64,000 bases of DNA from Providencia manganoxydans. Its GTDB lineage: Bacteria; Pseudomonadota; Gammaproteobacteria; Enterobacterales; Enterobacteriaceae. The stretch lies in assembly GCF_016618195.1 (NCBI RefSeq), contig NZ_CP067099.1:4216001-4280000 (forward strand). The letters are read 5' to 3'. The translations under genes and the position numbers were made by a program. Under the pieces are notes generated by a model that had not been told where the DNA came from, searched no databases, and saw nothing but the letters and a program-made list of their open reading frames with translations. Position 1 is the stretch's first letter. Every line of letters starts with the position of its first letter. Positions 18,829 to 19,683 of the stretch are shown piece after piece.

Positions 18829-19290
18829 GATGACCTCTGATTAATGAATATAAATTGCAAATCAATGAAAAACACCGTTCAACACCGTGCTTTTCTAAAC
18901 CAAATTCTGTTACAAACCGCCAATGCTGAATTGATTCACCTAGCACTATAATACGGTATAGCTAATTGTATATACCTGCTTTCTATCAAGCTTTGATTGT
19001 TTATTGTGATCCAGCTTACATAATTTTAGCGCATAAACATGATTACCACAGAATAGCGAACCACTATAGCGGTTGTTACCTTACTTCGAAACAGAAATTA
19101 AGTGCTTATACTCTAAATAATAACATTTATCGCTCATGAGGGCTTAACCTTATGAGTGACACAGATATTAGGAACGGGTCGCCTTAACTGATATCCCCTA
19201 TTAGGGTTAAAAATACAGATAAAAATGCGGGCTCAACTGTGCTAATCACAATGTCAAAATGCAGAAGGAATTTAATTTTGATAGGCTTTC
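18829..19290. other. Intergenic region between pfkA and the hok locus
   Basis: About 460 bases holding the pfkA promoter (minus strand) and presumably the hok promoter at its right edge. I see no coding frame or ERIC element and no recognisable remnant of fieF. Confidence 0.5.
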
Positions 19291-19335
19291 GGTGGGTGCT
19301 TGATCCTTTTTGGTTCAAGCATGCAGTTTGAGCCA

Positions 19336-19398
19336 AAAATGAGAAAGCCCCGTTAGTGAATATGTTCAACCAACGGGGCACAGATCTCAAACCAGACA
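19336..19398 (-). ncRNA. sok: Sok-like antisense RNA (predicted)
   Basis: Antisense to the hok leader. A minus-strand promoter is visible: TTGACC (plus 19428-19433), 17-base spacer, CACAAT (plus 19405-19410), predicting a start near 19398. The transcript would have a single-stranded 5' tail, a GCCCCGTT...AACGGGGC stem-loop and then TTTCTCATTTTT, a complete Rho-independent terminator. Size (about 60 nt) and layout match Sok of plasmid R1. Ends are estimated. Confidence 0.75.
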
Positions 19399-19404
19399 TT
19401 TGAG

Positions 19405-19433
19405 ATTGTGCCTCTTAGCCAATAAGAGGTCAA
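19405..19433 (-). promoter_or_regulatory. Sigma70 promoter of the Sok-like RNA
   Basis: Minus-strand -35 TTGACC and -10 CACAAT are exactly 17 bases apart, located immediately upstream of the predicted antisense start. The -35 box overlaps the hok ribosome-site region. Confidence 0.65.
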
Positions 19434-19439
19434 GGAGAA

Positions 19440-19586
19440 ATGACTAAGTATGCCTTTATGGCACTGTTGGCAGTATGCATCACTATTTTGAGTTTATCAT
19501 CGATGTTACGCGATAAACTCTGCACGTTGCATATCACCAGTGGTCACACTGTAGTCCAAGCGACCCTCGATTACGAACTGAGGTAA
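19440..19586 (+). CDS. hok: Hok/Gef-family type I toxin
   Basis: Small inner-membrane toxin of the Hok family, 48 residues, that depolarises the membrane when made. One hydrophobic helix (about residues 5-21, FMALLAVCITILSL) is followed by a charged segment with the family pattern RDKLC-x(3)-I-x(2)-G and the tail ATLDYE. Both Cys (13 and 28) sit where Hok proteins have them. AAGGAG lies about 4 bases upstream of the ATG. The gene has the full hok context: structured leader, antisense Sok-like RNA with promoter and terminator, and a strong terminator after the stop. It lies where E. coli carries fieF, between pfkA and the cpx region. The reading frame is intact, so the locus may be functional. 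Confidence 0.85.
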   Translation: MTKYAFMALLAVCITILSLSSMLRDKLCTLHITSGHTVVQATLDYELR

Positions 19587-19593
19587 TTGCTGA

Positions 19594-19627
19594 GCAGAGG
19601 GAGCTTTTCCCTCTGCTGTTTCTCTTT
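19594..19627 (+). terminator. Terminator of hok mRNA
   Basis: GCAGAGGG and CCCTCTGC form a perfect 8-bp stem with a 7-base loop and are followed by TGTTTCTCTTT. Confidence 0.88.
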
Positions 19628-19683
19628 CAAATGTTAAAGTTAGGCTTCAAGCACCCTGTCTTTAGATTTCAATCAACCTAGTA

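Follow-up and report, generated by a model that had tools for sequence, protein, structure and literature searches.

The locus described here lies in a 64,000-nucleotide stretch of the Providencia manganoxydans genome (hereafter the window), which corresponds to positions 4,216,001–4,280,000 of a single 4.34-Mb contig. It is flanked by pfkA (PF00365) on one side and by the cpxP side, with a cpxP-like gene of the LTXXQ family, on the other, in agreement with the placement between pfkA and the cpx region given in an earlier description of the DNA (the sequence-only reading). That reading had also assigned the locus to the place where Escherichia coli carries fieF. The gene order at the equivalent slot of E. 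coli K-12 is indeed cpxP-cpxQ-fieF-pfkA; however, the pfkA-cpxP slot of the window contains a gene for a loiP-type protease, an acyltransferase gene and a cdsA-like gene in addition to hok, and the sole cation-efflux (PF01545) match of the genome is found elsewhere, outside the pfkA slot. Since three other genes occupy the slot, hok is not a plain substitute for fieF. The elements of the locus, in window coordinates, are the following.

19279–19287, plus strand: candidate hok mRNA promoter of the extended −10 type (TGnTAnnnT), its five letters invariant in 18 of 18 aligned loci
19294–19303, plus strand: putative 5′ end of the hok mRNA and partner of the fbi element, overlapping the 5′ arm of the metastable hairpin (complementarity; start of the Rfam match)
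19297–19321, plus strand: metastable 5′ hairpin (inverted repeat I7; pairing conserved)
19308–19338, plus strand: alternative stem, which we take to be tac-like, mutually exclusive with the 5′ hairpin (MFE folds; inverted repeat I1)
19336–19398, minus strand: predicted Sok antisense RNA of about 60 nt, its ends placed from the promoter-like site, the terminator-like hairpin and the positions of K-12 SokB, SokC and SokE
19343–19447, plus strand: open frame at the place of mok, with no ATG or GTG and with two TTG codons that lack a ribosome site, stopping at hok codons 2–3 (frame scan)
19347–19379, plus strand: Sok target hairpin, which read on the opposite strand gives a terminator-like GC stem and T-rich tail for Sok (inverted repeat I5; minus-strand fold; conserved in alignment A1)
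19405–19433, minus strand: Sok promoter-like site, TTGACC, 17 nt, CACAAT (score 9 of 12)
19410–19430, plus strand: hairpin just 5′ of the hok ribosome site (MFE folds; pairs counted in the alignment)
19432–19437, plus strand: Shine-Dalgarno-like AAGGAG of hok (sequence)
19440–19586, plus strand: hok, 48-aa Hok-family toxin (Pfam HOK_GEF, 38.8 bits)
19593–19617, plus strand: GC-rich 3′ hairpin, probably a stop for 3′ trimming and not a terminator (inverted repeat; role suggested by plasmid R1 and by the fragment and accessibility results)
19618–19628, plus strand: segment predicted to pair with the ribosome site of hok when the RNA is full-length (MFE fold; tail-shuffle control)
19647–19656, plus strand: fbi (fold-back inhibitory) element (complementarity; pairing conserved)

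The product of the 48-aa open reading frame belongs to the Hok/Gef family (PF01848), scoring 38.8 bits against a cut-off of 22 (E = 6.9e-10), and the intact 48-residue toxin of the sequence-only reading is thereby upheld. The narrower NCBIfam models remained under their cut-offs (HokA, 36 of 89 bits; Hok-subfamily, 27.3 of 73 bits). The closest named Hok protein (P0001), from Providencia manganoxydans, is 94% identical and carries the NCBI name Hok/Gef family protein; two other protein clusters are 94% identical over the full length. For the adjacent cdsA-like gene the best named loci likewise come from Providencia. The suggestion that such a short gene would be missed by annotation consequently holds only in part: one protein database entry (P0003) is a 27-aa truncated product, but P0001 has been named as to family. 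Across the 17 aligned loci with an intact hok frame, variability is 0.385 at third codon positions versus 0.203 and 0.130 at the other two, an excess as in proteins under selection. A search of the genome-contig collection with the Hok protein gave no match, and near relatives may be absent from that collection. In one Providencia Hok group (L073, L074, L075 and L090) the cysteine of the DRLC motif is replaced by serine (DRLS).

The leader is equally recognizable at the RNA level. Positions 19294–19452 match the sok RNA family (RF01794) with 101.2 bits (gathering score 59), and nothing else in the window reaches an Rfam gathering score; the RNA 19292–19627 folds with a z-score of −6.9, none of 100 shuffles being equally stable; the structured leader proposed earlier is thus well founded. 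Nucleotides 19294–19303 and 19647–19656 can form 10 of 10 Watson-Crick pairs, the classic fold-back (fbi) pairing. Conservation was assessed in an alignment (A1) of 18 of 21 non-redundant loci, from which L069 and L072 (distant) and L071 (broken) were omitted and in which L066, with a broken Hok frame, was retained for RNA structure; in this last locus, from a Providencia alcalifaciens plasmid, the leader and fbi persist. Pairing is kept in 96.7% of 180 cells for the fbi helix and in 98.1% of 162 cells for the metastable 5′ hairpin, with at most 50.6% and 45.7%, respectively, when the partner is slid by 1–3 columns. Covariation is slight: each helix contains one change on both sides, found in the second hok copy of the same genome, where an identical base substitution has its counterpart in each of the two alternative helices. 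Shuffled columns attain the percentage of paired cells seen here in 111 of 500 cases for fbi and in 61 of 500 for the 5′ hairpin, and for fbi they attain the observed number of pair types in 498 of 500 and the covariation score in 480 of 500.

When the fbi partner was sought 280–430 nt downstream with G-U pairs allowed, 16 of 30 Rfam-matched loci displayed 10 of 10 pairs and 12 more displayed 9 of 10, among which L069 (at 418 nt) is unlike fbi and L088 is a tie. A second, unrelated place also scores 9 in 14 of the 30 loci, so that a score of 9 alone carries little weight. In the alternative leader stem the nine outer pairs (19308–19316 with 19330–19338) are kept in 151 of 162 cells and the four inner pairs less so. 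Individual pairs, counted without controls, show substitutions on both sides: pair 19310–19336 of this stem is T-A in 6, C-G in 11 and T-G in 1 of the 18 loci; pair 19353–19373 of the Sok hairpin is T-A in 10 and A-T in 4; and the 3′ hairpin has both-sides changes at 19594–19616 and at 19595–19615, the latter being C-G in 13 loci and T-A in 5. Two R1-type features are therefore present, the fold-back pairing by sequence and conservation, and the metastable 5′ hairpin with its alternative leader stem by prediction and conservation.

The 3′ part of the locus requires a different view from that of the sequence-only reading, which ended the transcript at 19627 behind a strong terminator. In plasmid R1, 3′ processing halts at a hairpin of this sort. 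The GC-rich hairpin 19593–19617 does exist; the fbi element, however, lies beyond 19627, and the transcript probably extends past that point. The hairpin is thus more likely a barrier to 3′ trimming than a terminator. The long-distance 5′–3′ helix is a known feature of hok transcripts (PMC2891591), and the R1 mRNA is activated by 3′ processing (PMC8309996).

Candidate signals for an antisense RNA of the R1 type overlie the leader. Conserved promoter-like and terminator-like motifs are present, and the number of promoter-like matches in the region (two found versus 1.7 expected) does not exceed chance. All 18 loci of A1 share the complement of TTGAC without change, although the same run borders the hok ribosome site. 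The annotated SokC, SokB and SokE of K-12 start 49, 48 and 44 nt upstream of the respective hok starts; the predicted Sok would start 42 nt upstream here.

The accessibility of the hok ribosome site in alternative forms of the mRNA was expressed as the mean unpaired probability over the start codon of hok and the 8 nt that precede it. In the window locus the value rises from 0.11 in the full-length RNA to 0.77 upon trimming to 19617. An increase on trimming to the hairpin was obtained for 17 of 18 loci, with medians of 0.18 and 0.58; when the RNA was trimmed at 19627 instead, the increase was seen in 15 of 18 loci and was weaker (median 0.34; window 0.48). None of 25 shuffled tails closed the hok site of the window as well as the real tail, and over all 18 loci 70 of 450 shuffled tails left it as closed, the real tail having little or no effect in L062, L065, L067 and L077. 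The switch is thus predicted well for the window locus and most of its relatives and poorly for some. Omission of the leader, a crude stand-in for Sok binding, left the median at 0.58 both ways with trimming at 19617, the site not being closed, and lowered it from 0.34 to 0.15, closing the site, with trimming at 19627. Because closure depends on the 19627 end, these predictions do not settle whether Sok controls hok directly by refolding.

We then consider the distribution of the locus. Among 24 Providencia genomes, 16 (its own included) contain a PF01848 match above cut-off. RF01794 exceeds its cut-off in 20 of 60 relatives, 18 of which belong to the set of 24 from Providencia, and, within the GTDB family, in 51 of 149 genomes. 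Runs of two or three adjoining hok copies, spaced by about 0.5 kb, occur at G017:C1:4519280-4520513, and tandem copies were also seen in G002, G003, G005, G006, G008, G009, G011, G012, G014 and G020. A weak third RF01794 match in the genome of the window (C1:2680392-2680545, plus strand; L229) scores 31.3 bits, below the gathering score, has no Hok frame by our filter and is probably a leader relic.

The pfkA-cdsA interval could be read in 22 of the 24 Providencia genomes, G012 and G015 yielding only another cdsA-type gene, and Hok is present at this site in 1 of the 22, the genome of the window. Among 21 measured intervals the length is 860 bp here, 400–464 bp in 15 and 536–578 bp in three (G021, G004 and G019); the interval of G005 (L048), outside these 21, is about 410 bp judging from coordinates. 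The remaining two, of 1114–1149 bp, contain by eye a cold-shock-like gene. Such a gene was noted by eye in L042 and L051 (Providencia rustigianii and P. heimbachae), so the site seems open to insertions.

A fragment search of the 21 intervals (that is, without L048 of G005) returned, besides the window, only G021, G019 and G004 with E ≤ 1. G021 retains 48 bases of the 5′ region (79%; 42.8 bits versus 24.7 for the best resampled control, n = 200) and G019 retains 37 bases of the Sok hairpin (84%; 37.4 versus 30.1 bits, n = 200), the controls being first-order resamplings, which are near but not exact dinucleotide shuffles. The candidate remnant of G004, 15 bases close to fbi, scores 23.8 bits and was discarded because resampled controls reach 29.2 bits. 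At a loose Rfam threshold no sok remnant was found in L032, L033, L034 or L052, and four weak matches to other families at this threshold were taken as chance. The cdsA-like gene beside the hok remnant in G019 (L052) contains several stops and frame changes and may be a pseudogene.

The simplest reading of this series would be an old insertion in this sublineage that has stayed whole in the window and decayed in relatives; independent arrivals of hok at the site are a possible alternative history. Absence of the frame from relatives that keep the flanks was what the sequence-only reading had named as evidence against its proposal, and at this site that pattern is formally observed. We read it as lineage-specific decay rather than as refutation, because two relatives keep fragments and the frame is conserved in the 94% identical proteins and in paralogues.

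The same remnants bear on the locus of the window itself, which could be a relic: the toxin frame would be intact, but regulation or expression would have ceased and the locus would be disappearing, as in the sister genomes. The fragments of G021 and G019, both above their controls, would fit such a fate, as would the description of the K-12 hok loci as non-functional in PMC7232551. However, the locus still has its toxin, the two promoter-like motifs, fbi and a predicted accessibility switch, and two other protein clusters retain 94% identity over the full length. We therefore regard a relic as unlikely.

In textbooks hok/sok exemplifies the toxin controlled by RNA, with an indirect control that runs through mok. 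The sequence-only reading had called the locus complete, with a full hok architecture, and in this respect it does not hold: when all frames of the window leader were scanned, no mok with a start codon and a ribosome site overlapped hok, and the R1-type arrangement, where mok overlaps hok and has its own ribosome site within the Sok target, is missing. In hok's own frame the leader is closed by stops at 19401 and 19416, and a second frame is open over just the last 14 nt before hok. The remaining one, 19343–19447, contains TTG codons at 19400 and 19406 and ends with TAA inside hok.

This last frame might represent a cryptic mok of a classic hok/sok locus, started from a non-ATG codon and coupled to hok through the stop in hok codons 2–3. 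Its geometry would be good for coupling and the two TTG codons are available, but neither has a ribosome site in the motif list, the second hok copy of the genome (L094) has no ATG, GTG or TTG in any overlapping leader frame, and the open frame and its stop position are not kept among Providencia loci. We consider a cryptic mok quite unlikely.

To compare loci, a canonical mok was defined as an ATG, GTG or TTG located 44–66 nt upstream of hok, behind GAGG, GGGG, AGGA or GGAG, with the frame open past the hok start. Among distinct, Hok-bearing loci it was found in 0 of 38 from Providencia, 0 of 6 from related plasmids and 23 of 43 from other genera, the last figure being a lower bound since the narrow test rejects L197 (despite an ATG at −55 with GAGG upstream) and K-12 hokA and hokE. 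A looser rule, any overlapping ATG frame, accepts 3 of 38, 1 of 6 and 31 of 43, respectively. Of the E. coli controls, hokB and hokC pass the strict test and hokA and hokE fail; mokC is in frame with hokC, mokA is a pseudogene next to IS150, hokE is without an annotated mok, and hokD stood outside the comparison. The locus set comprises part of the RF01794 matches together with 40 stretches added by hand, so that the counts refer to the loci examined. Eight Providencia loci, one plasmid locus and eight others were omitted for want of a Hok frame (40–60 aa, hydrophobic start, ribosome-site motif), one of the eight from Providencia, L220, overlapping a Pfam Hok match in a longer frame; L068 was left out. 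One exact Providencia duplicate was removed and near-identical loci were counted apart; as loci within a genus are related, the counts are not independent.

The absence of mok alone is not unique to Providencia, since 20 of the 43 loci elsewhere fail the strict rule. With these and E. coli hokA and hokE failing too, lack of mok may often mean decay. What stands out is that a single genus lacks it consistently and has intact toxins. A further mark of the Providencia-type loci as a group is the motif GTCAA in the 22 nt before hok, present in all 38 loci from Providencia, all 6 from plasmids and 2 of the 43 others, in part through a shorter distance between ribosome site and start, which is only 2 nt from AAGGAG to AUG in the window. 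No mok-less hok locus appears in titles or abstract openings among the matches listed from the open literature, which is weak evidence.

That the toxin gene is a chance short open reading frame in a structured intergenic region is extremely improbable: short frames are frequent in the window, but the Pfam, Rfam and fbi pairing matches agree in rejecting it.

The window thus harbours a real and probably functional chromosomal locus of the hok/sok type in a mok-less variant. We consider it likely, with appreciable room for doubt, that the best explanation is a chromosomal type I toxin-antitoxin system of the hok/sok kind, representing the mok-less variant of the examined Providencia and related plasmid loci. 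In such a system a stable hok mRNA would begin near 19294 and extend past 19656. With its 5′ end tied to fbi and the hok ribosome site paired, the full-length mRNA would be silent, and 3′ trimming back to the hairpin 19593–19617 would free the site. Sok, a short-lived RNA read off the minus strand between about 19398 and 19336, would pair with the leader. As there is no mok to block, Sok would have to act on hok directly, most likely through duplex formation and RNase III cleavage or through altered access to the leader and ribosome site; once Sok is lost or outnumbered, Hok would enter the membrane. The toxin and RNA families, the conserved pairings, the lack of a detectable mok and the predicted accessibility switch support this scheme, and we infer that the locus can yield active toxin restrained directly by Sok. 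Possible benefits on a chromosome are stabilisation of the region, a stress response or phage defence.

A more general proposal, which we put forward tentatively and would not yet bet on, is that the Providencia and related plasmid loci form a hok/sok class of their own that has entirely lost the mok relay; in it the folding switch alone would gate the hok ribosome site and Sok would act directly. If true, this would be another route to the same post-segregational or stress-killing logic. The locus is ordinary in toxin and RNA anatomy and lineage-specific in position, and its interest lies chiefly in the absence of mok: a genus whose Hok-bearing loci, as far as examined, keep toxin, folding switch and antisense signals without mok would make the need for mok testable in natural variants. 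The pfkA-cdsA site in turn offers a small natural series within one genus, in which a chromosomal locus is found intact, in fragments or missing.

Compared with known systems, the window locus shares with hok/mok/sok of plasmid R1 the Hok family, a predicted antisense Sok, alternative leader structures, the long-distance 5′–3′ helix and a probable 3′ processing (for R1, PMC2891591 and PMC8309996). In R1, however, translation of hok requires that of mok (PMC4147584), whereas the window locus has no mok; its AAGGAG lies only those 2 nt from AUG. Repression by Sok in the R1 type goes by way of mok, with cleavage by RNase III. According to PMC8309996, such type I toxins depolarise membranes, and HokB is pore-forming. 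E. coli K-12 hokB and hokC are chromosomal like the window locus, and their SokB and SokC start 48 and 49 nt upstream versus the predicted 42, but they pass the canonical mok test, which the window locus fails. The best DNA matches in the plasmid collection were to hok loci of Proteus, Providencia and Morganella plasmids (e.g. NZ_CP126337), 67–71% identical over 83–84% of the 461-base query (38 records with ≥80% coverage); a canonical mok is absent from six of the seven fetched, namely those with a Hok frame, and, unlike the window locus, they are plasmid-borne. The closest comparison is the second hok/sok copy of the same genome (C1:1384785-1384898, minus strand; L002, L094), which has a 48-aa Hok, the same layout, 9 of 10 fbi pairs and, like the window locus, no mok frame. 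It differs in its site, between genes for a GFO/IDH/MocA-type protein and a thiamine-pyrophosphate enzyme, and since the two copies are 69% identical in DNA sequence, their antisense specificities probably differ.
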